The notes below the pieces were generated by a model. The model saw nothing but the letters and a program-made list of their open reading frames with translations. It was not told where the DNA came from and did not search any database. The position numbers and the translations under genes were made by a program. A stretch of 64,000 nt of DNA, taken from contig JAKOTQ010000015.1 in assembly GCA_029776205.1 (NCBI GenBank), positions 1 through 64,000 on the forward strand, read 5' to 3'. Numbering within the stretch: position 1 is the stretch's first letter; every line of letters begins with the position of its first letter. Source of the stretch: Bacillota bacterium (GTDB taxonomy: Bacteria; Bacillota; UBA4882; UBA8346). Of the stretch, positions 18,168 through 63,047 are shown piece after piece.

Positions 18168-19301
18168 GTGCAGAAAGTAACTTGGAAAAAAATTATTATC
18201 TCAGGATTGGTTTTAGGCACAACATTCACAGGAAGCACAATTTGGGGCCAGACCTATTATGTACAACCGGGTGATTCTCTCTACAACATTGCAGCGCGAT
18301 TCGGAACCAGCATCTCCACCCTGCAGCAGTCCAATGGTTTATCATCAACAACCATATACCCCGGACAAGCTTTAAACATCACCTCGCAGGGTTCCAGTAC
18401 AACCTCATCTGGAACGCGGTATACGGTTAAAGCAGGAGACTCATTGTACTTGATCGCCCAACGTTACGGCATCACCGTAAACAGCTTAAAAAGCGCCAAC
18501 AACCTGTCAAGTGATTATCTCATTGTCGGAAAGGTTTTAACCATTCCTTCGGGAAACACGGCATCATCAGCCAGCTTATCAAGTCATAAAGTAACCTCTG
18601 GCGAAAGCCTTTACCTGATTGCCCAAAAATACGGTGTCACCGTTGAAGCCTTAAAACAGGCCAATAAGCTGAGCAGCAACAACATTATGGTTGGACAAGT
18701 ACTGACCATTCCCGCTAAAGAAAGTTCAACGTCCACCGGAAGCAGCAGCCATCTGGTTAAAACCGGGGACACCCTTTACCTCATTTCCAAGCAATATGGC
18801 ATCTCCTTGGATGATCTTTTGAAAGCCAACAACCTGAGCAGTTCAGCCCAGATTTATCCGGGGCAACGGTTAACCATTCCGAAAGGCGGAACCAGTTCTT
18901 CTTCCGGTACATCAACCAGTAAATACAATTTGAGCAGTAGCGACATCGACCTTTTAGCCAGACTGGTATCCGCCGAATCCGCCGGCGAACCTTTTGAAGG
19001 GCAAGTTGCCGTGGCAGCCACCATTTTGAACCGGCTGAGAGATTCCCGTTATCCGAATTCCATTGCTGGCATTGTCTATCAAGTCGAATCCGGAAGCTAC
19101 CAGTACAGCCCGGTCCTTGACGGCCGAATTAATTTACCGGCGACAGCCAGTGCCATTAAAGCGGTGCAACAAGCTATCAACGGTTGGGATCCCAGCAACG
19201 GAGCCAATGGATTTTACAACCCGGCTAAGACCACCAACAAATGGGTACGCTCCCATCCGGTAACCACAGTCATTGGCAACCATGTGTTTTTCAGTTATTA
19301 A
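18168..19301 (+). CDS. LysM-repeat cell-wall hydrolase, SleB-like
   Basis: A secreted 377-residue protein with an N-terminal signal segment (residues 8-28, ending near TIWGQ). Four LysM peptidoglycan-binding domains start near residues 30, 85, 141 and 197, each with the (P/A/S/T)G(D/E)(S/T)LY motif and a closing TIP, joined by Ser/Thr linkers. The C-terminal domain (about 262-377) matches the SleB-like cell wall hydrolase fold: LARLVSAESAGEPFEGQVAVAA is interrupted here only for quoting, then ILNRL, the NGAxGF(Y)NP stretch and VIGNHVFF. Such enzymes cut spore cortex or septal peptidoglycan. GTG start with AAGGAG 8 bases upstream; terminator after the gene. Confidence 0.9.
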   Translation: MQKVTWKKIIISGLVLGTTFTGSTIWGQTYYVQPGDSLYNIAARFGTSISTLQQSNGLSSTTIYPGQALNITSQGSSTTSSGTRYTVKAGDSLYLIAQRYGITVNSLKSANNLSSDYLIVGKVLTIPSGNTASSASLSSHKVTSGESLYLIAQKYGVTVEALKQANKLSSNNIMVGQVLTIPAKESSTSTGSSSHLVKTGDTLYLISKQYGISLDDLLKANNLSSSAQIYPGQRLTIPKGGTSSSSGTSTSKYNLSSSDIDLLARLVSAESAGEPFEGQVAVAATILNRLRDSRYPNSIAGIVYQVESGSYQYSPVLDGRINLPATASAIKAVQQAINGWDPSNGANGFYNPAKTTNKWVRSHPVTTVIGNHVFFSY

Positions 19302-19438: not shown

Positions 19439-21976
19439 ATGACTACACACTGGAGTACAGCCCTTATTGACGGTGTAATTGTAATTTTTGCTGCATTTCT
19501 CATATATATCATCTTACAGTGGAAGAAACACCGGGCCAGCCAAAGCGCCCAAACCCACTCATTGATACAAGCGAAACAGTTAATGGCTCAAGGGCGCTAT
19601 TCCGAAGCCCTAACCCAGCTCAATGCTCTTGCTTCAACTCCTGGACGCCACTTAAAAAATGCAGCGGAAATATACTTATGCCAAGGTATTTGTTTAAAAG
19701 AAATCGGGATACTTCAACGGGAGCCCGATTCACTTCGTGCTGCCGTTCCTCACCTGGAAAAAGCATATAAACTGGCTTCAAATAAAAAGCCTTTACTGGC
19801 AGCCAAGGTTCTCTATGAATTAAGCCGTTGTTATCTAGCATTGGCAGACTTTGAATCCAAAGAAAATTTACTGAGCAAAGCGATTACCGTTTCGAAAGAA
19901 GCTATTTCCCTGATATCTGCTAAAGCAGCCCCGGTCCTTTGGGCGCAGCTTCACTACCAAACAGGTATCAGCAGTTACCAGCTCTCCCAAATACGCAGGG
20001 AAGAAGCACTGAATTGCTTAACCCAATCAGTTACTGCATTAACTGAGGCCTTACAACATTTTTCCGAAAAAAGGCAACCTTATGAATGGGCCTTGACCCA
20101 ATTGGCATTAAGCCAATCTTATCGGGACCTTTCCAACTATGAAAATACTCAAGCGAATCTAAACGCTTCAGTTGAAGCAGCAACCAAAGCGGCTGGCTTT
20201 TTTACATTCCAAACCTATCCTTCTTCTTATGCTGCCGTCCAATTAAGTTTAGGCGACACTTACCTGGCCCTATTCAAAGCAAAAGCCGGTGACAGGTACC
20301 TTACCAAAGCATTCCGTGCTTTCAAACGAACCCTGCGGGTCTATAAATCTGAATTGCACCCATTGGAATACGCCCGAGTCTATCAGCGGCTTCAAAATCT
20401 TTATGAACTAGCCGCTAAAGCAACGGCCAAACCAAAATATTTTCAACGTTCTCTGGATTCAGGTGACGCTGCACTTACCGTCTTTACTTTAAAACGTTAC
20501 CCACACAATTACGCGTCTATCTATTTTCACAAAGGCCTCTGTTTTAGCGAGCTGGCTAACTTCACAAATACAGAACACAATTTATCTCTGGCTTTAACTG
20601 CCTTGATTGAAACAACCAAAGTCTACTTTGGCAGAGTGCATCATGAGATTTATCTTGACACGCAATGGCTGCGAGGGCAAATTCTTTACCGATTGGCTGA
20701 TTTGAAGCAATCTCAGGAACATCTGTCCCAAGCCCTGGTTTGCCTTAAGCCGCTCCTGCAAAGCAATTTTGCTCAAAAACACCCTGAACTTTATCCGTTA
20801 TTGGGTGATATTTACCAGAAATTGGCCGATCTACATTCCCTTCAAGAAAACTTGACCGAAGCCATTTCCGTTTATGAAATCGGTTTGGATCATTTTCCGG
20901 CCATATCCACTCCTGATGAACATGCCGACATCCAATATCAACTGGGAAAATGCCGTCTGAACTTGGGAATCCATACTAACCAAGCTGATCTCTTTAAAAA
21001 GGCGGTTCAGGCTTTGGAGATTGCGAAAGCCTTATTTGAAGCTGCATCGAACACCGACAGGCTTCAAGAAACCCTCAATAACTTGGGAAGGGCTTACCAT
21101 CAATTGGCGGCTTTCGACGATGCCCAAACCAATTTGGAAAGAGCTCTCGCCTGTTATCAACATTCGTTACGATTAGGAGAAAACCAGAAACCGGAAACCT
21201 TGATCTCGCTTTACCGTGATCAAGGTCTCGTCCTGAAATCGTTGAGCCGTTATAAAGCAAGACTAGCGAACCTTGACTTGGCTGTCCAAACCTTTCAAAA
21301 GGCGCTCAAGCTTTATCCGGACGAAACCTCCTCTTCGGAACACGGGCTGCTCCTGATGGACCTGGGTGAAACCTTCCTTGATCTTGCTGAAATCACTGAA
21401 AAAGAATATAACTTAAGCCGGGCCAAAAATCATTTTGAAAAAGCTATCCAGGATCTTGATCCCAAAACGTACCCTCTTGATTATGCCCGGCTTCAGAGCC
21501 TCATCGGAAACACCCTGCTGGAATTGGCTGACTTTGGAAATGCCGCTCATCTGTTAGATGAAGCCATTAATGCATTTAATACGGCATTGAGTATATATTC
21601 TCCCAAGAACTCTCCGGAACGTTATGCTGATACGCTCAATGCGCTCGGAGTAGCCTACCAAAACCTGGCTGAAGCGTCCCATAAAAGTAAAGAGATCCAT
21701 CTTCTCAACGCCATTCAGTCCTTAAAGGAAGCACTCAGGATTTATACACTTCAGGAGCATCCTTCTGAATACGCTATGGTGCAAAATAACCTGGGTTCTG
21801 CCTATAGTCTGTTGGCAGAAACTCAACACCGGGACCATAATTTGAAACTGGCTCTCAAAGCCTTTGAAGAAGCTGCCCAAATCTATAACATGGAAGAATA
21901 TCCAGATAACGCCCGCAAAGTCCGGATGAATATCGAAAAAATCAGAGGACGCTTCCGATTGCAAAACCAATCATAA
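19439..21976 (+). CDS. Large membrane-anchored TPR-repeat protein
   Basis: An 845-residue protein with one N-terminal membrane helix (residues 9-27), then many tetratricopeptide-like helical pairs to the C-terminus, recognisable by repeated A..LG..Y..LA and AL..Y..A patterns. Spacing between repeats is about 45-55 residues with N(L)xxA signatures such as NLxxAxxAxxxAL, so these look like longer TPR-like units. No catalytic domain is seen. It is probably a cytoplasm-facing scaffold. GGAGG lies 11 bases before the ATG. It follows a terminated gene and has its own unit. The partner is unknown. Confidence 0.8.
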   Translation: MTTHWSTALIDGVIVIFAAFLIYIILQWKKHRASQSAQTHSLIQAKQLMAQGRYSEALTQLNALASTPGRHLKNAAEIYLCQGICLKEIGILQREPDSLRAAVPHLEKAYKLASNKKPLLAAKVLYELSRCYLALADFESKENLLSKAITVSKEAISLISAKAAPVLWAQLHYQTGISSYQLSQIRREEALNCLTQSVTALTEALQHFSEKRQPYEWALTQLALSQSYRDLSNYENTQANLNASVEAATKAAGFFTFQTYPSSYAAVQLSLGDTYLALFKAKAGDRYLTKAFRAFKRTLRVYKSELHPLEYARVYQRLQNLYELAAKATAKPKYFQRSLDSGDAALTVFTLKRYPHNYASIYFHKGLCFSELANFTNTEHNLSLALTALIETTKVYFGRVHHEIYLDTQWLRGQILYRLADLKQSQEHLSQALVCLKPLLQSNFAQKHPELYPLLGDIYQKLADLHSLQENLTEAISVYEIGLDHFPAISTPDEHADIQYQLGKCRLNLGIHTNQADLFKKAVQALEIAKALFEAASNTDRLQETLNNLGRAYHQLAAFDDAQTNLERALACYQHSLRLGENQKPETLISLYRDQGLVLKSLSRYKARLANLDLAVQTFQKALKLYPDETSSSEHGLLLMDLGETFLDLAEITEKEYNLSRAKNHFEKAIQDLDPKTYPLDYARLQSLIGNTLLELADFGNAAHLLDEAINAFNTALSIYSPKNSPERYADTLNALGVAYQNLAEASHKSKEIHLLNAIQSLKEALRIYTLQEHPSEYAMVQNNLGSAYSLLAETQHRDHNLKLALKAFEEAAQIYNMEEYPDNARKVRMNIEKIRGRFRLQNQS

Positions 21977-21993: not shown

Positions 21994-23319
21994 TTACCGT
22001 TCTACCAACGAGAGCAGGGCTTTAAATATTTCACCCTGCTTTGGAAAGAACGGATGCTTTTTACTGGCCGCATCAAACAGGGAGCGGATAAATGGATTGT
22101 TGAGCGAACGAAGCAAGTTTTTATTTTGCTCTTTCTGCCGTTCCAATCTCTCACACAACCGGTCGACCGCAAGAAGGCCTGCACCCTGCAGCAGAGCTCC
22201 CAATCCCATATCCCGCGCTGAAAGCTTAAGTAACCGTTTTAGGCGGTTCGGTGTCAGTTCAGGCCATTTTTGAAGGACCTGCGCGATACCGCCGCTGACC
22301 ATTGGAGTCGCCATCGACGTCCCGGTTAAAGCGATATACCCATCTTTCGTATCCAGTGACATGATTTGGGTTCCCGGAGCCACCAAATCCGGTTTTTCCA
22401 AATTATCAATGGTCGGTCCGCGGCTTGATGAATCATTGAGCTGGTCATCGTCAAAACTCAATGTTTCTTGATCATTGAAATTTCCCACCGTTATGATCCG
22501 CGGGTTAATGCCGGGTGAATTAATCGTACCCCGGGCCGGGCCGTCATTTCCTGCAGCGGCACAGACTACGATCCCAGCTTCCCAAGCCGCTGTCGTCGCC
22601 CGGCATAACGGATCGGTCCGGTAAGACTCTTGGGCTTCGGCTCCCAACGACAAATTGATCACCTTAATCGGCAATGCAGAACGGTGATTGATACACCATT
22701 CGATACCGGCAATGACATCGGAAATATTGCCGCCGCCATCCCGATCCAGAACTTTCACTCCCACCAGACGGGCTTCCGGTGCCATACCACTATACATCCC
22801 GTCAGACCTAGTGCCGTTTCCGGCGATAATCCCTGCTACATGAGTGCCATGTCCATTATCATCATATGGTTCGCTCTTTTTATGAACTATATCGTGCCAG
22901 GCCAAAATCCGGTTCGTCGGAAGCGTCAAATCATCGTGGGGATATATACCGGTATCCAAAACGGCAACAACCACCCCTTTTCCAGTCAACCCTTCTCTTT
23001 GAATTGCCGTAGAACCGGTCACAACGGTTGCTACATCCAGTGTAGCCCGGACTGGCGCATTGCTCCAAATCTTTCGCACCCGTTGCGATCTCGCCAATTC
23101 CTCGAGAGCTTCTACCGGGCATTCCACCACTAAGGCCCAAAGCATTCCGAGTTCGCCACAGATTTTACCATGATTGGACTCGATCAAGGCCATGATCGCA
23201 TCTTGGCGCCGACTCATTAACTCGACGATCAGACTCACCTTATTTGGGGATTGGGCCCCGATTTCCCGTTGTCTTCGCAATATCGGCGAAAGTTTATAAA
23301 TCCATCGATTGGATAACAT
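21994..23319 (-). CDS. AprX-like subtilase (S8), catalytically intact
   Basis: A 441-residue serine protease without a signal peptide, so probably intracellular, similar in architecture to B. subtilis AprX. Residues 25-95 are a prodomain-like segment (LIVE...ALVVE...RVRKIW). The triad is complete: Asp122 in VLDTGI, His157 in NGHGTHVAG, Ser335 in GTSMATP; the oxyanion Asn258 is in AAAGNDGP. A 60-residue C-terminal tail follows the protease core. The start is the ATG at 23319. It is the last gene of a leftward group with a pseudoprotease and a free prodomain-like protein, 112 bases after the former, and converges with the TPR gene. Confidence 0.92.
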   Translation of the reverse strand: MLSNRWIYKLSPILRRQREIGAQSPNKVSLIVELMSRRQDAIMALIESNHGKICGELGMLWALVVECPVEALEELARSQRVRKIWSNAPVRATLDVATVVTGSTAIQREGLTGKGVVVAVLDTGIYPHDDLTLPTNRILAWHDIVHKKSEPYDDNGHGTHVAGIIAGNGTRSDGMYSGMAPEARLVGVKVLDRDGGGNISDVIAGIEWCINHRSALPIKVINLSLGAEAQESYRTDPLCRATTAAWEAGIVVCAAAGNDGPARGTINSPGINPRIITVGNFNDQETLSFDDDQLNDSSSRGPTIDNLEKPDLVAPGTQIMSLDTKDGYIALTGTSMATPMVSGGIAQVLQKWPELTPNRLKRLLKLSARDMGLGALLQGAGLLAVDRLCERLERQKEQNKNLLRSLNNPFIRSLFDAASKKHPFFPKQGEIFKALLSLVER

Positions 23320-23431: not shown

Positions 23432-24910
23432 TTATTCCGAAGCCAACTTAGGGGAAGCTAAAGATCGAATCAGTTTCATGATGATTTCTTGTAAATCCGA
23501 ATTTGAACTGCCACCATCCGCCCGGATGCCAGAGATTATGGTTTCCATTAATCCTGCAAGATTCAAATCGTTATTTAACGGGGAGGGCATTTCTTTCTCC
23601 AATTCCATTCTAGCTTTTTCAATAGATTCTTGAAGCAACTTCAAGCCGGTCTTAATTAGCTCCGGAATCATACTGTTTCGTAACATCCTTTCCCAGGCTT
23701 CGTTGATCTTTAATACTTTCATCAAAGCAATTACCAGTTTAAGCTGCTCATTAATCTGGGGATTTTGATAAAATTCAAGCCGTTTCACCAATTTTTCGAC
23801 ATCAACATGACTCAAATAAGTGATAACCTGATCGATCAGAGCCTGCATTCCTTTAAGAACCCACTCGCTCACATCAGGCTCCGAAACTTTTTTCCCACTG
23901 GCCTCCACGGATTTTTGGAGTTGGATCTCTTTGGCAACTGCCTTTTTCACCCAGTCAAGCGGCACAGAAGGATACTTTTCCAAAACGCAGGCAGCTATTC
24001 CGCTTATATATCCCACTGCCTCTCCAATATCGACTGTCCTTCCAAAATACAGGGGATGATCCGGATTCGGAACAACAAGCCGCCCGTCACTCCGATTATC
24101 CGGCCATTCACTGTTCACAGCAACTAACAAACGCCGATTCATCCCGGGCGATTGCGCCATCGGGCCTCCCTCTTCATCGCTGGATTCCAACCCGGTACAG
24201 ACTAAAACCCCTTCTTTTTTAGCCAGAGTCAACGCCCGACATAATGGATCCCGCTCTTCATTTCCTTGGGCTAATGTCTTTAAAGGAACGACCATCACCC
24301 GTATAGGCTCCGGCGAATTGTCGAGACACCACTCGACGCCCAGCAGCACATCAGCTAATGTTCCCAAGGCCTTCCGGTTTAACACTTTTACCCCGATCAA
24401 CCGGGCATCCGGTGCATGTTCAGCAATGATCCGCGCCAAACGAGTCCCATGCCCGTGATCATCATAAAGTGTTTTTCGGCTGTTCACTATATCCGCCCAA
24501 CCGATGAATGATTTATCCGAATATCCCAAGCCGGGACCCAGACGAATCCCGGTATCCAGTAAAGCGACAATCACTCCTTTCCCGGTCCCCCTCTCCCGCG
24601 GTAACCAGGGAGTCACCAGACGGTTCGGGCTGGAAGCAAGCGGTTTAACCACTGTATTACTCCAAACCCGCCGCACCAAAGGAAGCCGGGCCAATTCGGA
24701 AACCGCTGCTGCTGGCAGCTTTATTTCCATGGCAGGTATCAGCTTTATTTCCCGGGATACTGTCCCCTGTTCGGACTCAACAAATCCGGCAACCTTATCC
24801 CATACGTTTCCCGAAACCTCCACAATCAAGTGGCACCATTCTTCGGAATGATAGTCCAAATTTCTTAAAACCGGAGAAAGTTTAAGATTCGGCCATAATC
24901 CATCAGCCAT
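23432..24910 (-). CDS. Subtilase-like pseudoprotease with extra C-terminal helical region
   Basis: A 492-residue relative of the two neighbouring subtilases. The Asp (D119 in LLDTGI) and His (H154 in HGHGTRLA) remain, but the oxyanion Asn region reads CTGLESSDEEG and the GTSMATP serine motif is replaced by DIGEAVG, with Gly296 at the Ser position. It should not be proteolytic. After residue 320 comes a helical, Lys/Glu/Leu-rich region of about 170 residues not found in the paralogues. The start is the ATG at 24910, matching the KLSP start of the paralogues, with GGGGGA upstream. The frame is intact over its length, so it is likely kept for a binding or regulatory role. Confidence 0.85.
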   Translation of the reverse strand: MADGLWPNLKLSPVLRNLDYHSEEWCHLIVEVSGNVWDKVAGFVESEQGTVSREIKLIPAMEIKLPAAAVSELARLPLVRRVWSNTVVKPLASSPNRLVTPWLPRERGTGKGVIVALLDTGIRLGPGLGYSDKSFIGWADIVNSRKTLYDDHGHGTRLARIIAEHAPDARLIGVKVLNRKALGTLADVLLGVEWCLDNSPEPIRVMVVPLKTLAQGNEERDPLCRALTLAKKEGVLVCTGLESSDEEGGPMAQSPGMNRRLLVAVNSEWPDNRSDGRLVVPNPDHPLYFGRTVDIGEAVGYISGIAACVLEKYPSVPLDWVKKAVAKEIQLQKSVEASGKKVSEPDVSEWVLKGMQALIDQVITYLSHVDVEKLVKRLEFYQNPQINEQLKLVIALMKVLKINEAWERMLRNSMIPELIKTGLKLLQESIEKARMELEKEMPSPLNNDLNLAGLMETIISGIRADGGSSNSDLQEIIMKLIRSLASPKLASE

Positions 24911-24926
24911 CCAAATTCCCCCACTC

Positions 24927-25202
24927 TCACTCTTCTTTACAATGAGCCACTTTGAGATCGGCATTAATCATCCGAACTTGTTTCATTTGCGCCAATTCTT
25001 CGATAACCCGGGGATCCACTTCCACTACCAGGGCATGAACACTGTTTAAACGATGGCACACCTTCCCGTTACGGGCTTTAACTAAGGCAATCACCGGTTC
25101 AAAATCATCCCGGCCCACCTCTACAATCACCCGGCGCGTCCCTTCCTCAGTCGATAAATACTCTGCTTTCAACGATGCAGCAATCTTTTTGGCCCAATCC
25201 AT
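24927..25202 (-). CDS. Free-standing subtilase prodomain-like (I9-type) protein
   Basis: A 91-residue protein that resembles only the N-terminal prodomain of the adjacent subtilases: RRVIVEVG, then a helix, then ARNGKVCHRLNSVHALVVEV, ending with a helix and VRMIN. No protease domain follows. Stand-alone I9 proteins are known as protease inhibitors or folding chaperones, so it may control the neighbouring proteases; that is inferred. The ATG at 25202 is 8 bases after AGGAGG; the GTG at 25211 lies inside that site. The gap to the pseudoprotease gene is 16 bases, so they are co-transcribed. Confidence 0.75.
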   Translation of the reverse strand: MDWAKKIAASLKAEYLSTEEGTRRVIVEVGRDDFEPVIALVKARNGKVCHRLNSVHALVVEVDPRVIEELAQMKQVRMINADLKVAHCKEE

Positions 25203-25403: not shown

Positions 25404-25505
25404 TTAGAACAATCCGCCGCCAAAGATGATAAAGAGAAAGATGATGATCCAAATCCACCACCAGCTACCGCTACCAAACAGTCCTTCGTAACGGTTATCG
25501 GCCAT
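25404..25505 (-). CDS. 33-residue hydrophobic Gly/Trp-rich peptide, YjcZ-like
   Basis: A tiny gene below usual annotation size. It starts MADNRYEGLFG, has GSWWWIWIIIFLFIIF as a single membrane segment, and ends GGGLF. GGAGGTGAATTGG precedes the ATG, an excellent ribosome site. The layout (MAD..., short Gly linker, one hydrophobic helix, Gly-rich end) is like the two peptides to its right and like YjcZ-type sporulation peptides. It probably inserts into a membrane. The function is unknown; spore association is inferred from the family resemblance. Confidence 0.7.
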   Translation of the reverse strand: MADNRYEGLFGSGSWWWIWIIIFLFIIFGGGLF

Positions 25506-25618
25506 CCAATTCACCTCCCTGTTCGTGATAATTTATTCTATGGAGATCGAACAAAGCATGAACCGCGCTATAGTTTGAAAATGTTATGCTAAAGATATCA
25601 ATTTGATAACAATAGCAA

Positions 25619-25638
25619 GCTGCCCTTAAACGGGCAGC
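25619..25638 (-). terminator. Hairpin after small peptide gene 2
   Basis: GCTGCCC and GGGCAGC form a perfect stem, followed on the minus strand by TTGCTATTGTT. The T-run is weak, but the position 36 bases after the stop fits a terminator. Confidence 0.5.
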
Positions 25639-25673
25639 CGTCGCTTATATCTTAAATATTCAGTGGGCTCTAT

Positions 25674-25778
25674 TTAGAAGCAGCCCCCACCGCAACCGAT
25701 CACGAGTAGCACAAAGATAAGGAACATTAACCAACCATTATTTCCAAAACCACCAAAAAATCCTTTACTATCTGCCAT
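25674..25778 (-). CDS. 34-residue hydrophobic Gly/Cys peptide, YjcZ-like
   Basis: Translation is MADSKGFFGGFG, then NNGWLMFLIFVLLVIG as a membrane helix, and CGGGCF at the end. AAAAAAGGAG lies 8 bases before the ATG. It is nearly identical in its middle to the peptide at 25968-26075, with two C-terminal cysteines separated by three glycines. The gene has its own terminator and ribosome site, so it is a separate unit. The cysteines could form a disulfide or bind metal; no evidence decides this. Confidence 0.75.
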   Translation of the reverse strand: MADSKGFFGGFGNNGWLMFLIFVLLVIGCGGGCF

Positions 25779-25924
25779 ATGTTTCACTCCTTTTTTCGCC
25801 TTCATAAAGGCTTTTTATAGTAATATTTATATTATGGGATTATCAAAAGTGTCATGGGCGTTTGTTATTTTCATATCGGATAAAATAGTATATACCCTTT
25901 ATCCTGTTACATCCGGCATCACAA

Positions 25925-25946
25925 AATGCCGGGAAACCCCGGCATT
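25925..25946 (-). terminator. Terminator of small peptide gene 3
   Basis: AATGCCGGG and CCCGGCATT form a 9-bp stem with a 4-base loop, 22 bases after the stop codon. TTTGTG follows on the minus strand. Confidence 0.65.
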
Positions 25947-25967
25947 CATGAATTCAAATATCAGACG

Positions 25968-26075
25968 TTAGAACCAACAACCGCCGCAACCAATGACTAA
26001 AAGGACGAAGATTAAGAACATTAACCAACCATTGTTACCAAAGCCGTCAAATAACCCTTTAACTGCATCAGCCAT
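25968..26075 (-). CDS. 35-residue hydrophobic Gly/Cys peptide, YjcZ-like
   Basis: Translation is MADAVKGLFDGFG, then the same NNGWLMFLIFVLLVIG helix as its neighbour, and CGGCWF at the end. AAAGGAGGG lies just before the ATG at a usable distance. It is a clear tandem duplicate of 25674-25778. Three such genes in 700 bases, each with its own strong ribosome site and hairpin, point to high-level expression, possibly in the developing spore. This timing is an inference. Confidence 0.75.
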   Translation of the reverse strand: MADAVKGLFDGFGNNGWLMFLIFVLLVIGCGGCWF

Positions 26076-26245
26076 AATGTAACCCTCCTTTTTATCGCCC
26101 TATTTACAGGCTTCTATTGCAGTATATGAAGATTTTTTCTGAATTTGTTAAGGCAAATGTTATTTCCATATTGGATAAAATAATATTATGCCGTATCTTC
26201 GGTACTTTAACGTTACATCAGCCTGTGCCTTCTATCAATCCCGTG

Positions 26246-27508
26246 TCAAATAGCAGGCTGTCTCGTTAAAAACGGCTGGAACAAAGGAATCCGGCTCAGG
26301 ATTTTGACGATCCATCCGATAATTCCACGACTCTCAGCAGCCTCTTCCTCAAAGACTTTCTCTACGCTTAAAGCACCCGCCCCTTCAATATAGGAACGCA
26401 ATCCCATATCCCGGGCATTTTGTTTCAAAATCCGTTTCACCTGTTCCGGTTTTAATCCCGGTTTTTGCTGCAGAATTTGGGCTACCGCTCCGGCAACCAT
26501 CGGAGTAGCCATGGACGTTCCGGTCATCGTCTGATATCCACCACTAGGTTTCAGCGATATGATATTGGTTCCCGGCGCCAACAAATCAGGTTTAACCTGG
26601 TTATCGATGGTCGGACCGACGCTGGAGGATTCATTGACAATATCATCGGACGGATCGACTGTACCCCGATCATCCAGATTACCGACAGTGATCGCTTTCG
26701 CCTCAATACCGGGCGTATTAATGGTCCGGGCTCCCGGCCCGTCGTTTCCGGCGGCCACACAAACGACTATCCCGTTATCCCAAGCGCTTCGTACAGCAGC
26801 ACACAATGGGTCATTCGCTGCTGATTGATAAGCCGGCGCCCCCAAGGATAAATTGATCACACGAATGTTGTACATCGATTGATGCTCAAGACACCATTCG
26901 ATGGCTACCAAAATGTCGGAAATATTGCCCGTACCTTCTTTATCTAATGCTTTGATTCCGACCAGATTAGCTTCAGGTGCCATACCGGTATATTTACCTC
27001 GAGAGGCCCAACCATTTCCTGCCACAATCCCGGCTACATGGGTCCCGTGGCCATTGTCATCATACGGCGAGGTTCGCCCATTCACCAGATCGTTCCACCC
27101 GATAATCCGGTTTTGAGGGGATGTTAAATCAGGATGGGGAGCGATACCTGTATCAATTATCGCAACCGTTATGTCTTTACCGGTATATCCCAACCCCTGT
27201 CCAACGCTACTTCCGGTTGTAGGAACGGCAATATCCAATAAGGCTTTCACTTTTGTATCCTGCCAGATTCTCCGGACATAAGGTGCCATGGCCAGCGGTT
27301 GAAGGGCACCATAAGGCATCTCTATGATCGTCCAAGGAAACCGGCTAAATTGACGTCGAATCACTCCGGAATTGGCTTTGACATAAGGGCCAACCCTCCG
27401 GATTTCCGGTGCAACCATTTCTACGATAAACCTGACGTGCTGTTCCGGATGATCGACAAACTCGGAATCTAATAATTCCGGAGATAACTTTTGAATCCAT
27501 GATTTCAT
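26246..27508 (-). CDS. AprX-like subtilase (S8), catalytically intact
   Basis: A 420-residue serine protease, paralogue of the one at 21994-23319 and also without a signal peptide. The prodomain-like N-terminus covers residues 20-90. The triad is Asp119 in IIDTGI, His154 in NGHGTHVAG, Ser332 in GTSMATP, with oxyanion Asn255 in VAAGNDGP. A short hydrophobic C-terminal tail (GIIGWIVKILSRIPLFQPFL) could touch a membrane. GCAGGAGG lies 10 bases before the ATG at 27508; an ATG 60 bases earlier would add unrelated residues. It is separated from the other protease genes by the three peptide genes. Confidence 0.92.
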   Translation of the reverse strand: MKSWIQKLSPELLDSEFVDHPEQHVRFIVEMVAPEIRRVGPYVKANSGVIRRQFSRFPWTIIEMPYGALQPLAMAPYVRRIWQDTKVKALLDIAVPTTGSSVGQGLGYTGKDITVAIIDTGIAPHPDLTSPQNRIIGWNDLVNGRTSPYDDNGHGTHVAGIVAGNGWASRGKYTGMAPEANLVGIKALDKEGTGNISDILVAIEWCLEHQSMYNIRVINLSLGAPAYQSAANDPLCAAVRSAWDNGIVVCVAAGNDGPGARTINTPGIEAKAITVGNLDDRGTVDPSDDIVNESSSVGPTIDNQVKPDLLAPGTNIISLKPSGGYQTMTGTSMATPMVAGAVAQILQQKPGLKPEQVKRILKQNARDMGLRSYIEGAGALSVEKVFEEEAAESRGIIGWIVKILSRIPLFQPFLTRQPAI

Positions 27509-27527: not shown

Positions 27528-27713
27528 CTATTTTCTAACCAGGATGTAATCATGCAGATAACTTTCATGCATCAACACATCCCCATCCTCAGTATATGAA
27601 GGGCAGTAAAGATGGCGATAAGGCGAAGGTAGCATTGTCGCAGCACGATATTCCAAAATCCATCCAAAGAAAAGACGGACAGCCCTCTCTATCGGAATCG
27701 CCCATTCATCCAA
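27528..27713 (-). CDS. Doubtful small hypothetical protein
   Basis: A 61-codon frame fills the gap before the subtilase gene and ends 20 bases before it. It begins with TTG (LDEWAIP) and has no good ribosome site. I recognise no domain; there is an aromatic-rich stretch, RLFFGWILEYRA. It overlaps no other gene, but nothing besides its openness supports it. Confidence 0.25.
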   Translation of the reverse strand: MDEWAIPIERAVRLFFGWILEYRAATMLPSPYRHLYCPSYTEDGDVLMHESYLHDYILVRK

Positions 27714-28512: not shown

Positions 28513-29169
28513 TTAATGAGGCGGATGAATGTGAGACAAATCAAAAGCTTGTCCACCTGGGGTCGATAAATTGAAGTACAATTTAGAATCTTCGGTAACT
28601 CCAAAATCCCGGCTCGACCCGGTTTGGGCAATTTTACCCAAGGCTTTTCGGAAAAGCTGATTGTGAGCTTCTTCCCGGTTGAGCAAAAAGTCGATGGTCT
28701 CCCGGACTCCTTTGTCATCGATTTGTCGATAAAGATACTCGTAAACCACTTTGGCCCGCATCTCCGCAGCAATATCCGACAACAAATCAGCCACCAGATC
28801 CCCCGTGACATTGACATAGTCAGCAGTCCACGGATGCCCTGAAGCATTGATTAAACCCGGCGCCAAACCGGTTAGTACATGAGTTTGAACTTCTCCGACA
28901 GTCGCCTGGTTGGCCTGTAACTCACCCCCATTGAGTTGGGTGATAAGCATGGAGACCATTTCCATATGGGATAACTCCTCGGCGGCAATATCCAGCATCA
29001 TATCTTTAATCTCCGGGTCTTTGATCCGAAAACTTTGGGACATATATTGCATCGCCGCTTTAAGCTCTCCGTTGGCACCTCCCAATTGTTCCTGAAGCAT
29101 CGCTGCAAACTTAGGATTTGGCCCATCGACCTTCACCGTATGCAAAGGCTTCTTGTCATGTAAAAACAT
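28513..29169 (-). CDS. Manganese catalase family protein (CotJC-like)
   Basis: A 218-residue ferritin-like four-helix protein of the Mn-catalase family, which dismutates hydrogen peroxide at a dimanganese centre. Metal ligands are visible: Glu in GANGELKAAMQY, EELSHME with Glu and His, Glu in AAEMRAKVVYEYL and the NREEAHNQLF Glu/His. The His/Pro-rich tail DLSHIHPPH is common in such proteins. Close relatives include the spore coat protein CotJC, so a spore location is possible. It is followed upstream by a DUF1540 gene, another frequent spore-associated neighbour. Confidence 0.9.
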   Translation of the reverse strand: MFLHDKKPLHTVKVDGPNPKFAAMLQEQLGGANGELKAAMQYMSQSFRIKDPEIKDMMLDIAAEELSHMEMVSMLITQLNGGELQANQATVGEVQTHVLTGLAPGLINASGHPWTADYVNVTGDLVADLLSDIAAEMRAKVVYEYLYRQIDDKGVRETIDFLLNREEAHNQLFRKALGKIAQTGSSRDFGVTEDSKLYFNLSTPGGQAFDLSHIHPPH

Positions 29170-29187
29170 ACGTCCTCCTTATTTTCA

Positions 29188-29433
29188 TTAAGAATTTCTC
29201 GTAACACCATCGACCCTAATTTGATCTGAATTGGCCGGCACAAAAGTTTTACAGCAGGTTTCCATACATTGGTTGGCTTGCATTTGAGGGAACTCGATAT
29301 GATCGGAAGCATCCATATGGTCCGGTGCTTGGCTGGCAAAGGCATCTGCGGTGACCATAATCTCCGATGCGTCACATTGATTTCCCTCAGACCAGTAATG
29401 GCAATTATGAATATTGCAATAAATTTTAGGCAC
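29188..29433 (-). CDS. DUF1540 protein
   Basis: An 81-residue protein with a cysteine pattern CNIHNCHYWSEGNQCDA at the N-terminus and CMETCCKTF near residue 56, typical of DUF1540. The family is thought to bind metal, by its cysteines, but has no assigned function. GGAGGAG lies upstream of the GTG start. It is 18 bases upstream of the Mn-catalase gene and so in one operon with it. Members often occur in spore formers. Confidence 0.85.
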   Translation of the reverse strand: MPKIYCNIHNCHYWSEGNQCDASEIMVTADAFASQAPDHMDASDHIEFPQMQANQCMETCCKTFVPANSDQIRVDGVTRNS

Positions 29434-42874: not shown

Positions 42875-43021
42875 AAACCTCTTTCGAATGAAAGAGGTTT
42901 CCACGAATATACGATGTTACCTCTCTCATCTTCCGGGTCTCCCCGACGGAATTGGCACCTTTTCTCGCAGGTTGCCGAAGGTTCATTGGGCCGTTCCCTC
43001 CCCTTCTCTGGATAAGAGTCA
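42875..43021 (-). ncRNA. SAM-I (S-box) riboswitch of metA
   Basis: On the minus strand the aptamer runs from about 43021 to 42923, with P1 formed by CTCTTATC and GATGAGAG. Core S-box blocks are AGAGAAGGGGAGGGA, ATGAACCTTCGGCAACC and GGTGCCAATTCC. An 11-bp terminator hairpin, AAACCTCTTTC/GAAAGAGGTTT, with TTTTTG follows at 42875-42900. SAM binding would favour termination before metA. Confidence 0.95.
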
Positions 43022-47253: not shown

Positions 47254-48510
47254 TTATAATAAACGTGCCAAATCAGTATCCGGATGATTGCCGCAACGCC
47301 GGTAATCATCAAAATCAACCGGAAGACCGTATTTAACCCTCAGTTGATGCAAGCCTTTTGCCAAACGGACATAGTAGTCAAGGGACGGACTTTTCTGGTC
47401 TTTAAAATACGAACCGGGGCGCGGCACCCAGACAGAGAACACGACATTAACTCCATGGCTGATCAAATGCTCTGCCTCCTCCAAAGTCGACCGTAACGCC
47501 GCTTCCTCACTGGTAAACCCTTTAGGTTTAGCAGTTTCTACGCCACCGACAATACCTGTACCCACATAACCGCGTCCAAAGATGTCAACCGCTCTGATTA
47601 AACGGTTCTTCCACTCTCGGTAACCGACCCATTCCGCTTTTCCCGGACAGACCCATTCAAACAACTCCTCGTTCAATACTTCCAAGTCGGTAGTATAACT
47701 TCTTATCCCGGTCTCTTCATACAACCGTGCCAGCTGCTTTTCAGTGAACGCCGTAGCAACCAACTGGCTGGGGAACTTTTTGACTTTAAAGTTAGCGCCG
47801 ATCGCCTGCAGGATTTCGATGTAATAATCGACTTCCTGATCAAACGGTTCGGCCCCACGGGTATCGGATCCCGCCGTCAAACAAATCGTGGTGAACCTGC
47901 CAGGCTGTTTCAAAGCTTCCCGGACCGCTTCGAAGACATCCTGCGGATTCTGGCGTGTGGGAATTCCCAGTTCCGCCCGTTGCTGTTTTAAATGATTCAC
48001 AACATCACAGAAACGGCAACCCTTGTCATTAACCCAGAAGTGGCAAAAACCCGACGGAAAAACATTGATACGCTGAGGCCGGGCAGTAATGACATGGTTC
48101 ATTAAAGCTCCGGAACTGGTCTTTTTATCATAAAAATCCGGTTTTGTCCAGAAGTCAACCGTTTCCAAGACCTCACCCTGATCGGTCAGCACCAATTGGC
48201 CATCGACTACATCCACCAAATACGGATTGCGCTCCAGCGGTGTCGGGTCAACGACGATTGAGGACCCGTCGCGAAGTAACAGCGAATCCGGTACCGGTGT
48301 AAGTTGGGCATCCCGCGCGCCAAAAATATTGGGACTCCGGAGTTGATGCACCGAAGGATCAATCACATTTAAAGCATTTTGGGTATAATGAACCCCACGG
48401 CGTTGAACATCGATCTTCAAAATCACTAACGGAGGAACATCGGGATGTTCCCGAACTACCTCAGAGTAAGATAAGGGAATTTGATCTTCACGTTTTAATG
48501 CCATTGACAT
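47254..48510 (-). CDS. Radical-SAM-like protein with CX8CX2C motif, copy 1
   Basis: A 418-residue enzyme with a cluster-like motif CHFWVNDKGCRFC (Cys156, Cys165, Cys168), spaced CX8CX2C instead of the canonical CX3CX2C. A GSD motif (CLTAGSDTRGAEPFDQEVD) fits a SAM-binding strand. The N-terminal 145 residues are a conserved domain of unknown fold with DVQRRGVHYT and a VxPTPLExNPYxVD motif. It is flanked by SsuA, PNPOx and metK, so radical chemistry on an imported organosulfur compound is likely. The family is not one I recognise by name. Confidence 0.75.
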   Translation of the reverse strand: MSMALKREDQIPLSYSEVVREHPDVPPLVILKIDVQRRGVHYTQNALNVIDPSVHQLRSPNIFGARDAQLTPVPDSLLLRDGSSIVVDPTPLERNPYLVDVVDGQLVLTDQGEVLETVDFWTKPDFYDKKTSSGALMNHVITARPQRINVFPSGFCHFWVNDKGCRFCDVVNHLKQQRAELGIPTRQNPQDVFEAVREALKQPGRFTTICLTAGSDTRGAEPFDQEVDYYIEILQAIGANFKVKKFPSQLVATAFTEKQLARLYEETGIRSYTTDLEVLNEELFEWVCPGKAEWVGYREWKNRLIRAVDIFGRGYVGTGIVGGVETAKPKGFTSEEAALRSTLEEAEHLISHGVNVVFSVWVPRPGSYFKDQKSPSLDYYVRLAKGLHQLRVKYGLPVDFDDYRRCGNHPDTDLARLL

Positions 48511-48562
48511 TCAAAACACTCCTTCCTCTTGATTGGTGCTTTTTAGCAATTAAAAGTTAATA

Positions 48563-49546
48563 TTATTTGATTCCGATTGCCTGCAAATAACGAAGATCAA
48601 TAAAGGCATCAATATTGACTTTGTTTTTAATGATTTTATGAGCCCGCATAAATTCTTCAGTCTTTTTGAGTTCTTCAATATCGTCAGCATTGATCCCCGA
48701 CGAATAATCAAACTTAGCAAAGACTTTCAGCGTTTGTTTCGGGGTCAGCTTGATCTCATCCGCGACTAATTCCGCAGCTTGTTCCGGATTGGCTTTAATG
48801 AATTCATACCCCCGTTGATAAGCTCTTAAAAAAGCGTTAACCAAAGCCCGATTTTTAACTGCAAATTTATTAGAAGCGATGATCACCAATAACCCTTTCT
48901 TAATATTGGTTCCATCAGCCAAGACCCGTATAGTACCACTCTCTTCCAATTTGGTGATATGGGGTTCCCAAACCGCCCCGGCTTCAATATCACCGGTATT
49001 CAGAACAGTTCCGATATCCGCAACCGGCAGATTGATCAATTGAACATCCTCAAGTGTGAGTCCGCTGTTTTGAAGTACCAGCGCCAAGAGATGGTGGGCA
49101 TAAGAACCTTTAGTAACCGCTACCCGCTTCCCTTTTAAATCCTTCGCCGATTTAATGGTTGCGTTTTTCCGGACGATCACTGCTAACGCTTTCGGACCGC
49201 TGGATGCAAGACCAATGATGCGGAGATCTTGACCGGAAGCCCTAGCGATGATCGCCGGGGTGTCTCCCATCAAACCAATATCCACTTGCCCGGCGGCAAA
49301 CGCCTCATTGATGGGCGGCCCTGCCAGAAAAGAGATCCATTTAACGTTAACCTTTTCTTTTTTTAACTCCGCTTCCAGCCAACCTTGCTTCTTCGCAATG
49401 AAGATCGGCGCATAATGGGGTCCTGGTTGGGTCGCAATCCGGATCTCCTTGGCGACGGTGCCATGGCTTTCCTTACCGTAACTTCCTATTGCTAAAACCA
49501 GCACAATCAGTGCGGTTAGGAAGGTTAAATTAATGATCTTTTTCAT
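48563..49546 (-). CDS. SsuA-like substrate-binding protein (unpaired copy)
   Basis: A 328-residue protein with signal peptide (MKKIINLTFLTALIVLVLAI, cleavage near SYGKES) and the same fold as the one at 45729: KEIRIATQPGPHYAPIFIAKKQGWLE and KGKRVAVTKGSYAHHLL. It has no permease or ATPase of its own next to it, so it probably feeds the set 1 channel. It lies 58 bases after a radical-SAM gene, with a PNPOx scar between. Confidence 0.9.
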   Translation of the reverse strand: MKKIINLTFLTALIVLVLAIGSYGKESHGTVAKEIRIATQPGPHYAPIFIAKKQGWLEAELKKEKVNVKWISFLAGPPINEAFAAGQVDIGLMGDTPAIIARASGQDLRIIGLASSGPKALAVIVRKNATIKSAKDLKGKRVAVTKGSYAHHLLALVLQNSGLTLEDVQLINLPVADIGTVLNTGDIEAGAVWEPHITKLEESGTIRVLADGTNIKKGLLVIIASNKFAVKNRALVNAFLRAYQRGYEFIKANPEQAAELVADEIKLTPKQTLKVFAKFDYSSGINADDIEELKKTEEFMRAHKIIKNKVNIDAFIDLRYLQAIGIK

Positions 49547-49568
49547 CATTTTTACCTCGCTTTTTTAG

Positions 49569-49598
49569 TCATTTTGTCAATTGATCCAAATGTAAGAA
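49569..49598 (-). pseudogene. 3' scar of a deleted PNPOx-like gene
   Basis: Directly after the radical-SAM stop, ten codons read FLHLDQLTK and a stop. They match the last codons FLHLDRLAK and stop of the intact PNPOx gene at 46735. No other part of the gene is present. The scar shows that this unit once was rSAM-PNPOx-SsuA, like the one to the left. Confidence 0.7.
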
Positions 49599-49603
49599 AG
49601 AAA

Positions 49604-50866
49604 TCATAACAACCGTGATAAATCGGTATCGGGATGATTGCCGCAACGCCGGTAATCATCAAAATCAATCGGCAGACCGTATTTAACCCGCAGTTGATGC
49701 AATCCTTTTGCCAAACGGACAAAATAGTCAAGGGACGGGTTCTTTTGATCGCGAAAATAGGATCCGGGGCGTGGCACCCAGACGATAAAAGCAACATTCA
49801 CTCCCTGACTGATCAAATCCTCAGCCTCAGTCAAAGTAGATTGCAGAGCTGCTTCTTCACTGGTAAACCCTTTGGGTTTAGCGGTCTCTACCCCGCCGAC
49901 AATACCGGTACTAACATTACCGCGTCCGAAGATATCAACCGCTCTGATTAAACGGTTCTTCCATTCGCGGTAACCGATCCATTCGGCTTTTCCAGGGCAA
50001 ATCCAATTAAACAGCTCCTCGTGCAACACTTCCAAATCAGCGGTGTAACTGGTTAATCCAGTCTCCTCATACAACCGTGTCAGCTGTTTCTCAGTAAACG
50101 CCGAGGCAATTAACTGACTGGGGAACTTTTTAACTTTAAAATTGGCGCCAATCGCCTGCAAGATTTCGATGTAAAAATCAACTTCCTGATCGAACGGCTC
50201 TGCTCCGCGGGTATCGGAACCTGATGTCAGGCAAACTCCAGTGAACCGGCCTGGTTGCTTTAAGGCTTCCCGGACCGTCTCAAAGACGTCCTGCGGATTC
50301 AGTTTTGCAGGAATCCCCAATTCTGCGCGTTGCTGTTTAAAATGGTTGACGATATCGCAGTAACGACAACCTTTGTCATTGGCCCAGAAGTGGCAAAAAC
50401 CTGATTGAAAGATATTCAGACGCTGGGGTCTGGCGCTGACAATATGGCTCATTAAAACTCCGGAACTGGTTCGCTTATCATAAAAGTCCGGTTTGGGCCA
50501 ATATTCAACTGTCTCCAGGATTTCACCCCGATCGGTCAGCACCAATTGCCCATCAATTACATCAACGATATACGGATTTTGCTCCAACGGTGTTGGATCA
50601 ACGATGATCGAGGTACCATCTGGAAGTAACAAGGACTCTGGTACCGGCTTGATTTGAGCATCCCGCGAACCAAAAATATATGGACTTCTAAGCTGATGCA
50701 CCGATTCATCGACAACACTTAAGGCATTCTTGGTATAATGGACCCCACGGCGTTGAACATCCATCTTCAAAATGACTAATGGAGAAACATCGGGATGTTC
50801 CCGAACCACCTCAAAATAGGATAGGTTTTTTTGATTTTCATTTTCTTTCTGAAGTGCTAAGGCCAT
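49604..50866 (-). CDS. Radical-SAM-like protein with CX8CX2C motif, copy 2
   Basis: A 420-residue protein very similar over its whole length to the one at 47254. The motif is CHFWANDKGCRYC (Cys158, Cys167, Cys170), with CLTSGSDTRGAEPFD and an end of DYRRCGNHPDTDLSRLL. GAGGAG precedes the ATG. It follows metK by 161 bases and is preceded by the leader element B, so its expression is probably attenuated. It is the upstream half of a duplicated rSAM-SsuA unit. Confidence 0.75.
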   Translation of the reverse strand: MALALQKENENQKNLSYFEVVREHPDVSPLVILKMDVQRRGVHYTKNALSVVDESVHQLRSPYIFGSRDAQIKPVPESLLLPDGTSIIVDPTPLEQNPYIVDVIDGQLVLTDRGEILETVEYWPKPDFYDKRTSSGVLMSHIVSARPQRLNIFQSGFCHFWANDKGCRYCDIVNHFKQQRAELGIPAKLNPQDVFETVREALKQPGRFTGVCLTSGSDTRGAEPFDQEVDFYIEILQAIGANFKVKKFPSQLIASAFTEKQLTRLYEETGLTSYTADLEVLHEELFNWICPGKAEWIGYREWKNRLIRAVDIFGRGNVSTGIVGGVETAKPKGFTSEEAALQSTLTEAEDLISQGVNVAFIVWVPRPGSYFRDQKNPSLDYFVRLAKGLHQLRVKYGLPIDFDDYRRCGNHPDTDLSRLL

Positions 50867-50936
50867 TAATAAACACTCCTCACTGTTTTAGCGACGCTTT
50901 AGTTTTGAAAAAACTTAAGTTCTTCGCCATTTGAAC

Positions 50937-50996
50937 AAAAAAAGCTAAGCGGTTCTGTACTAGAATCCGACTTAGCCTCCGGTTTTTTCGGTCAAC
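50937..50996 (-). ncRNA. Conserved leader element B before the radical-SAM gene
   Basis: On the minus strand: GTTGACC, a small hairpin CCGAAAAAACCGG, then GGAGGCTAAGTC, and a terminator hairpin (GCTAAG ... CTTAGC) ending in TTTTTTTG. It sits in the 161-base gap after metK. Elements A and C share all parts. It is an attenuator candidate; I recognise no known riboswitch. Confidence 0.7.
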
Positions 50997-51027
50997 TAAA
51001 TACGCTATTTTCAACTTTGGTTCATCT

Positions 51028-52236
51028 TTACCCGTTAACCACTTTCTTCGTTACCAATTTCAAGAGTTTTTCAACCTGATCCGTCTGCTCCCACGGCAGA
51101 TCCAAATCCGTCCTGCCAAAATGCCCGTAGGCTGCAACCTGGCGATAAATCGGACGTTGTAATTGCAAGTTTTCAATAATCGCCGCCGGACGAAGGTCAA
51201 ACACTTTCTGAATGAGCTCGCTCAGTTCGACATTGGTATACTCACTGGTCCCAAAGGCATCGACAAAGACCGAAACCGGCCGCGCCACACCGATGGCATA
51301 AGCGATTTGAATTTCTAAACGTTTTGCTAGTCCAGCAGCAACAACATTTTTGGCCACATACCGGGCTGCATAGGCTGCCGAACGATCCACCTTGGTCGGA
51401 TCTTTGCCGGAAAAAGCGCCGCCACCATGCCGCGCAAAACCGCCGTATGTATCCACAATAATTTTCCGCCCGGTCAATCCGGCATCACCTTTAGGACCGC
51501 CAACCACAAAGCGTCCGGTGGGATTCACCAAAATTCGTGTCTTTTTATCCAAAAATCGTACCGGGATCGTTTGGTGAATCACCTGCTCGGTTAGATCCTG
51601 TGTTAACTGTTCCACGTCAACATCGGGATCATGTTGTGCCGAGAGGACGACTGTATCAACCCGTACCGGTTCCAACCCGTCATACTCGACAGTAACCTGA
51701 GTCTTCCCGTCGGGACGCAGGTATGGTAACTGACCGTTTTTGCGTACCGCCGCCAGTTCCCGCGCCAATCGATGGGCTAAAGCGATGGGGGTCGGTAAAA
51801 ACTCCGGTGTTTCATCAGTTGCATATCCAAAGACCATTCCCTGATCACCTGCGCCAACTTCATCCCAACGATCCGCATGACTACTCAGCCGGTTCTCTAA
51901 CGCTTGGTTGACCCCCTGAGCGATATCCGGCGACTGTTGATCGAGAGATACTAAAACGAGACTATTCTCGGCATCCATCCCATATTCAGCCTTGGTATAA
52001 CCAACCTCAGCCACAGTATTGCGAACAACTCTAACCAGATCAACATTGGCCTTCGTGGTAACCTCCCCCGTTAACAGGACGAGCCCAGTCGAGACATTCG
52101 TTTCACACGCTACCCGCGCCAAAGGATCTTGTTGGAGAATCGCATCTAACACGCTGTCAGAAATTTGGTCGGCTAATTTATCCGGATGCCCTTCGGTAAC
52201 CGACTCCGAAGTAAAAAAAGAGTGTTGTTTTCCCAT
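51028..52236 (-). CDS. metK: S-adenosylmethionine synthase
   Basis: A 402-residue enzyme that makes SAM from methionine and ATP. Conserved blocks are [32 protein letters not shown], and [19 protein letters not shown]. The K and H residues of the active site are in GHPDK. It is notable for its position inside a radical-SAM gene block, which suggests dedicated SAM supply. Leader element A with a strong promoter lies upstream, and no S-box is found there. Length is normal. Confidence 0.95.
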
Positions 52237-52284
52237 AGATAATTCCTCCTATATTTGAATTTACTGAAGTGATTTAAGCCAAAT

Positions 52285-52347
52285 AAAAAAGGCTGAGTCA
52301 TTCTTGATATAAGAATGAACCTCAGCCTCCGGACTTTCCGGTCAACC
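52285..52347 (-). ncRNA. Conserved leader element A of metK
   Basis: On the minus strand: GGTTGACC, hairpin CCGGAAAGTCCGG, then GGAGGCTGAG, and a terminator stem GGCTGAG/CTCAGCC extended by TCATTCTT/AAGAATGA, ending TTTTTT. It begins about 67 bases after the -10 and ends about 50 before metK. It matches elements B and C in order and sequence. Confidence 0.75.
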
Positions 52348-52413
52348 GCATTTGTTATTAGAATATGCAACTACCCAAAAATTATTGCCTAGTAATTCTA
52401 TCGGATTAATTGT

Positions 52414-52442
52414 ATTATAAATAACCAGTTGCTGACTGTCAA
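52414..52442 (-). promoter_or_regulatory. Promoter of metK leader transcript
   Basis: TTGACA and TATAAT are spaced by 17 bases on the minus strand. Just after the -10 is an operator-like stretch with ATAGAATTACT that resembles the putative Rrf2 sites. Confidence 0.8.
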
Positions 52443-52472
52443 TATCAAATTTGATAATTCTCAATAATGTTC

Positions 52473-53723: not shown

Positions 53724-53744
53724 CATCCATCCATCCTTCTGTAC

Positions 53745-62901: not shown

Positions 62902-63047
62902 AAACCTCTTCCCGAAGAAGGAGGAAGAGGTTTCATTTCATACGATACCCCTCTCATCTTTCAGGTTTCCCTGCCGGAATTGGCACCTGCGACTCCCAGG
63001 TTGCCGAAGGTTCATCGGGCCGTTCCCTCCCCTTCTCTTGATAAGAG
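62902..63047 (-). ncRNA. SAM-I (S-box) riboswitch of metI-metC
   Basis: On the minus strand the aptamer is at about 63047-62951, with P1 CTCTTATC/GATGAGAG and the blocks AGAGAAGGGGAGGGA, ATGAACCTTCGGCAACC and GGTGCCAATTCC. It is followed by a terminator, AAACCTCTTCC/GGAAGAGGTTT, with TTTTTATT, at 62902-62933. It closely matches the metA riboswitch. Confidence 0.95.

Follow-up and report, generated by a model that had tools for sequence, protein, structure and literature searches.

Why would a sporulating bacterium retain a subtilase without its catalytic serine, and next to it a gene encoding a subtilase prodomain and nothing else, in the company of two intact enzymes of the same kind? The question is raised by a stretch of 64,000 nucleotides (the window; contig C73) from the 2.7-Mb, 99.4% complete genome of an uncultured member of the Bacillota. 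To our knowledge, the Csp proteins of Clostridia are the pseudo-subtilases of bacteria whose role has been studied. In the literature searched, the stand-alone subtilisin propeptide comes from Plasmodium, and the combination of a pseudoprotease, a free prodomain and intact AprX enzymes was not found described.

Results

Organization of the AprX cluster

The genes of the cluster lie on the minus strand and are transcribed in the order AprX1 (26246..27508, 420 aa), three tiny hydrophobic peptide genes (25968..26075, 35 aa; 25674..25778, 34 aa; 25404..25505, 33 aa), a stand-alone subtilase prodomain (24930..25202, 91 aa), the pseudoprotease (23432..24910, 492 aa) and AprX2 (21994..23319, 441 aa). 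AprX1 and AprX2 match Pfam Peptidase_S8 above its cut-off and carry the Asp, His, Ser and oxyanion Asn of active S8 enzymes (D119, H154, S332 and N255 in AprX1; D122, H157, S335 and N258 in AprX2). The preliminary description was therefore right to call both paralogues intact, but had them adjacent to the other two genes, and three tiny genes in fact stand between AprX1 and the prodomain gene. As in the AprX-like subtilases of family S8 (Bacillus AprX, Tk-SP), the architecture is that of a prodomain and a subtilase domain without a signal peptide, and every AprX of this set has a prodomain of its own. The nearest solved structure is that of Tk-SP from Thermococcus kodakarensis (AprX2 against Tk-SP, E about 2e-62). 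What sets the locus apart from the known AprX-like systems is a dead paralogue together with an additional, free-standing copy of the prodomain.

A large TPR-repeat protein gene (19439-21976) is found in the same region, and such a gene also lies beside or near AprX in several genera (L035, L042, L045 and L049). The cluster is flanked on one side by a SleB-like LysM hydrolase (18168-19301), which scores above the cut-off for Hydrolase_2 and below it for the SleB model, and on the other, just beyond AprX1, by a CotJC-type manganese catalase (28513-29169), which is accompanied by a DUF1540 protein (28513-29433 for the two). Elsewhere in the window, three paralogues of ~418 aa with weak Radical_SAM matches (47254-53726) are interleaved with sulfonate-type ABC transporter genes, PNPOx-like genes and metK, and two SAM riboswitches (42923-43018 and 62951-63047, minus strand) lie upstream of methionine genes.

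A subtilase with a degenerate active site

The mechanical open reading frame of the pseudoprotease gives 510 aa and runs into the prodomain gene. The start of that frame should be replaced, most likely by the ATG at 24910, which lies behind a G-rich ribosome site 19 nt past the prodomain stop and yields 492 aa. The protein comprises its own prodomain (about residues 1-92), the Asp/His half of the subtilase domain and a helical C-terminal extension. Asp119 (in DTGI) and His154 (in HGT) are present and the oxyanion motif AAGND has become GLESS, without the Asn; on both points the first reading of the sequence was correct. Its statement that Gly takes the place of the catalytic Ser holds in part. 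The GTSMATP segment is missing, with about 12 residues lost under either gap placement, so that the Ser has either been deleted or, by the other placement, corresponds to Gly296. The protein is thus without the catalytic Ser and without the oxyanion Asn that an active S8 protease has. Pfam Peptidase_S8 scores 29 bits against a cut-off of 21.8 and covers only positions 1-113 of the 288 in the profile; this N-terminal match and the fold match identify the pseudoprotease as a homologue of S8 enzymes with a prodomain.

The structural model of the pseudoprotease is of high confidence over most of residues 20-240 and has a pLDDT below 50 over most of the remainder; ProN-Tk-SP is its top match among solved structures, and pro-subtilisins are also among the best. 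In subtilases the prodomain packs on two helices. By homology with the fold these helices are residues 185-198 and 222-232 of the pseudoprotease; both are well modelled and include conserved positions, and in the model the prodomain-docking surface is retained though the active site is lost. The helical tail of the preliminary description stands as a prediction from about residue 335, most of it with a pLDDT below 50; its helical hydrophobic moment was 0.974, compared with 0.684 ± 0.099 in shuffles. A profile built from the tails that AprX2 and the degenerate paralogues carry at their C-termini scored the pseudoprotease tail no better than shuffles, and a common origin with those tails was dropped for this reason. 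Pfam matches to UEV, UBA_5 and SNARE were below cut-off and were taken as chance, and a defence role was set aside as the PADLOC matches were generic subtilase matches.

The free prodomain

The protein encoded upstream, already described as a prodomain only, lies below every Pfam and NCBIfam cut-off. It can be aligned with the N-termini of AprX proteins, and a profile of four rows finds the Tk-subtilisin propeptide with an E-value of about 0.001. The predicted fold, beta-alpha-beta-beta-alpha-beta with a pLDDT of 80.5, is that of an I9-like propeptide, and the closest solved folds are ProN-Tk-SP, the Tk-subtilisin propeptide, pro-subtilisin E and the BPN' prosegment, with CspB lower. The 91-aa protein is a genuine subtilase prodomain homologue with a propeptide-like predicted fold, in agreement with the earlier assignment. 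Its gene stands alone beside subtilase genes and ends near the pro/mature border, as do all four free prodomains discussed below, so that each is a complete prodomain. The gap to the pseudoprotease is 19 nt, which makes a common transcript probable.

One explanation for these two genes is that the free prodomain acts only as a chaperone in AprX folding, while the pseudoprotease serves in the coat or as a scaffold and has no control over AprX. Prodomains are folding chaperones, and the pseudoprotease, with its fast evolution relative to its neighbours and its long helical extension, is scaffold-like. However, the free prodomain and the pseudoprotease are adjacent and probably co-transcribed and, because every AprX has its own prodomain, a separate one would be unneeded for folding. 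We consider this explanation possible but rather unlikely.

Constraint on the pseudoprotease and the free prodomain

Another possibility is that the pseudoprotease and the free prodomain are a decaying pseudogene and a fragment, both left by a tandem duplication. This would fit with the loss of the active-site segments and with the pseudoprotease being the fastest-evolving gene in the block. Both frames had been noted as open in the window, and the preliminary description had named decaying frames in close relatives among the signs against its reading; decay was looked for in a congener and not found. In this congener (G001, locus L035) the gene content and gene order of the cluster are those of the window, at a dS of 0.9 to 1.1. 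Protein identity and dN/dS between the two species are 90% and 0.046 for AprX2, 91% (readable first part) and 0.048 for AprX1, 87% and 0.080 for the free prodomain and 65% and 0.243 for the pseudoprotease, in every part of which dN/dS is at most 0.26, the helical tail (0.26) included. The pseudoprotease frame is open over 492 and 487 codons in the two species at a dS of about 0.9, whereas 500 neutral simulations, run at half or full divergence, produced at least 7 stops every time. The pseudoprotease therefore evolves fastest, yet is clearly constrained, and the open frames in the congener pair, the purifying selection and the simulations together lead us to reject decay as extremely improbable. 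In the congener, the AprX1 frame is shifted by one base within six consecutive Gs (L035, about 14190), a change that is either an assembly error or real.

Recurrence in relatives

In 29 class genomes, free prodomains are limited to G000, G001, G005 and G008, which belong to three genera of one family, and 399 genomes sampled from the phylum yielded no further short free-prodomain frame outside that family. Beside each lie an intact AprX and a paralogue that is degenerate or dead, and in the data searched the set is restricted to a single family of uncultured, sporulating Bacillota. Intact AprX, free prodomain and degenerate AprX lie inside 5 kb both in G005 (L036) and in G008 (L038); in the latter Thr replaces the catalytic Ser and the Asn is gone, a form of inactivation unlike that of the window pseudoprotease. 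Intact and degenerate AprX occur without a free prodomain in G003, where the contig stops just past the degenerate gene, and in G006. The segment SSRGPT, present in intact copies (SSVGPT in AprX1), is lost in degenerate ones, and several of the relatives' degenerate paralogues retain the Ser and may be active; the degenerate paralogues of relatives form a graded series. In the best prodomain tree the four free prodomains group together with support of 80/59, which is no more than suggestive. A single ancestral dead lineage was set aside, as the tree did not place the pseudoprotease: its grouping with the degenerate clade (p-AU 0.23), AprX2 (0.51) or G006_deg (0.32) was compatible with the data, and only a grouping with AprX1 was rejected (p-AU 0.002).

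It could be argued that the free prodomain and the pseudoprotease are a separate two-protein unit, in which the pseudoprotease is the prodomain's only target and AprX1 and AprX2 are bystanders. The probable common transcript across the 19-nt gap fits this argument, as does the presence of the free prodomain only in genomes with a degenerate paralogue, but the pseudoprotease has its own prodomain, and the pair is separated by other genes or by gaps in G005 and G008; we hold the proposal to be very unlikely. The preliminary description had suggested a regulatory trio of inhibitor, decoy and protease. These roles are plausible, and the suggestion gains from the recurrence of free prodomain, degenerate paralogue and intact AprX in two further genera; it had missed the tiny peptides, the sporulation-type context and the graded series.

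Tiny peptides, upstream elements and sporulation

Tiny hydrophobic peptide genes accompany AprX in six genera, and no Pfam or NCBIfam model matches the peptides. In the window, the 35-aa and 34-aa peptides are of the class with LMFLIFVLLVIGC and the 33-aa peptide is of a second class with WWWIWIIIFLFIIF. The genes come with ribosome sites of their own, hairpins resembling terminators and a common upstream element. Runs of such genes (29-55 aa) were noted at 25404-26075 of the window and in L035, L036, L038, L040, L042, L044 and L046. YjcZ-type peptides of Bacillus are tiny, with a glycine-rich start and one hydrophobic stretch. The window peptides are like them in size, glycine-rich start and hydrophobic stretch, which is a resemblance only, as no curated model was matched; B. 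subtilis yjcZ belongs to the sigma-K regulon (PMC517825). The tiny-peptide motif is also found inside AprX C-terminal tails in G006, G007 and G009, with a weak E-value and visible by eye as a repeated LFLILILLIL, and this fusion ties the peptides and AprX together. AprX tails that bear the motif twice are encoded at L042:5115-6605, L049:5545-6819 and L040:10665-12086.

Upstream of the tiny genes, CATATA[A/C]T is present in 10 of 20 cases (0.18 expected from shuffles) and the longer GCC-N22-25-[C/T]ATATA[A/C]T in eight of the 20, across four genera (0.007 expected). In the window the element GCC-N23-CATATACT lies upstream of the first tiny gene (26121..26154, minus strand) and of AprX1 (27591..27624, minus strand), and both copies are kept in L035. 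AprX1 therefore has the element GCC-N23/24-CATATA[A/C]T in common with the tiny genes, with the same spacing in both congeners, and the CATATA element is absent from AprX2 and the prodomain gene. Between AprX1 and the pseudoprotease, the intergenic DNA of the two congeners shows 91% identity, and long blocks of it upstream of the tiny genes match without a break. A whole-genome count of a related two-part pattern gave three matches, two of them in the cluster, against three in a reversed control, so that the count alone is uninformative and the information lies in the positions of the matches. Mapped sigma-E and sigma-K promoters of C. difficile have the -10 boxes CATATATA and CATATAAT (PMC3789822). 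When its -10-type box is compared alone, the CATATA[A/C]T element resembles these boxes, which are of mother-cell type; a sigma-G type motif was not clearly enriched upstream of the cluster genes.

Spo0A and GerA receptors are encoded in all 29 class genomes. Near AprX we find spoVA in L043, L047 and L049 and, by profile, NlpC/P60 in L036, L043 and L044, with similar sequences in L039, L040 and L046. From Spo0A and GerA, the upstream elements and the spore-type neighbours we infer that the cluster is probably expressed in the mother cell.

Discussion

In the Csp proteases of Clostridia, an active subtilase and dead paralogues are likewise encoded together in spore formers (PMC3567191, PMC6636752, PMC12880746). 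The dead copies are likewise unable to remove their own prodomain, and in CspC, too, Gly occupies the Ser position; the His of CspC is changed, whereas the window pseudoprotease keeps it. The cluster differs from Csp in having a free prodomain and tiny peptides, and GerA receptors are encoded in its genome. The Csp jelly-roll insertion of about 130 aa is missing, His and Ser being 178 residues apart in AprX1 and AprX2 and 311 in CspB, and the curated CspC and CspBA models give AprX1 and AprX2 66-94 bits against cut-offs of 675 and 1250, with the pseudoprotease absent from the listed matches. Membership of the Csp family is ruled out by the missing jelly roll and the unmet model cut-offs. The dead subtilases CspC and CspA pair up as a signalling heterodimer (PMC12880746), and a germination switch like that of CspB, CspA and CspC would have the pseudoprotease sense or relay a signal and the freed AprX activate a cortex hydrolase (SleB-like or NlpC/P60). 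That the C. difficile pseudo-subtilases act in this way, and that cell wall hydrolase genes adjoin AprX in several genera, speaks for such a switch, but the hydrolase neighbour varies among genera, GerA receptors are in every genome of the class and the jelly roll is missing. We think it quite unlikely.

We propose, tentatively and with slightly less than even confidence, that this is a spore-linked AprX module under trans control by the free prodomain and the pseudoprotease, analogous to Csp and not a member of it. We infer binding and inhibition by the free prodomain, and the roles of the pseudoprotease and the tiny peptides, as follows. The module would be linked to sporulation and probably made in the mother cell, with AprX1 and AprX2 as its active enzymes. 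The free prodomain would fold alone and bind active AprX in trans as both chaperone and inhibitor, its C-terminal end sitting in the AprX active-site cleft like those of the CspB prodomain and SUB1-ProM. Supplied in trans, the CspB prodomain rescues folding, and its final residues block the active site (PMC3567191). Encoded on its own next to subtilase genes, the propeptide SUB1-ProM of Plasmodium is a potent inhibitor (PMC6993865). It likewise has a separate propeptide-fold gene adjoining subtilase genes; inhibition is demonstrated for the Plasmodium protein, we claim no sequence relation to the bacterial one, and its description includes no pseudoprotease partner. The window pseudoprotease, apparently made from the free-prodomain transcript and unable to process itself, would be a non-catalytic binding partner that sets the free amount of prodomain or AprX by means of its Asp/His half and docking helices. 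The tiny membrane peptides may place the proteases at the spore membrane or coat surface. Several points stand against the trans-control module: the uncut prodomain of the pseudoprotease should fill its own cleft and may block the free prodomain; the free prodomain and the degenerate gene are not immediate neighbours in G005 and G008; several degenerate paralogues keep the Ser and may be active; and AprX2 and the prodomain gene are without the CATATA element.

A bolder proposal, which we regard as unlikely, is that subtilase, pseudosubtilase, free prodomain and tiny peptides form one spore-membrane complex, an independently evolved parallel to Csp in which the protease would be switched on, at a defined stage of spore assembly or germination, when the prodomain is released or the pseudoprotease changes. 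A bacterial family with a dead paralogue and a free prodomain beside intact enzymes would be a small, testable system of protease control and would provide a second occurrence of spore-linked pseudosubtilases. The recurrence of the tiny peptides, the motif of which some AprX proteins carry as a fusion, suggests a membrane partner that is named by no curated family.
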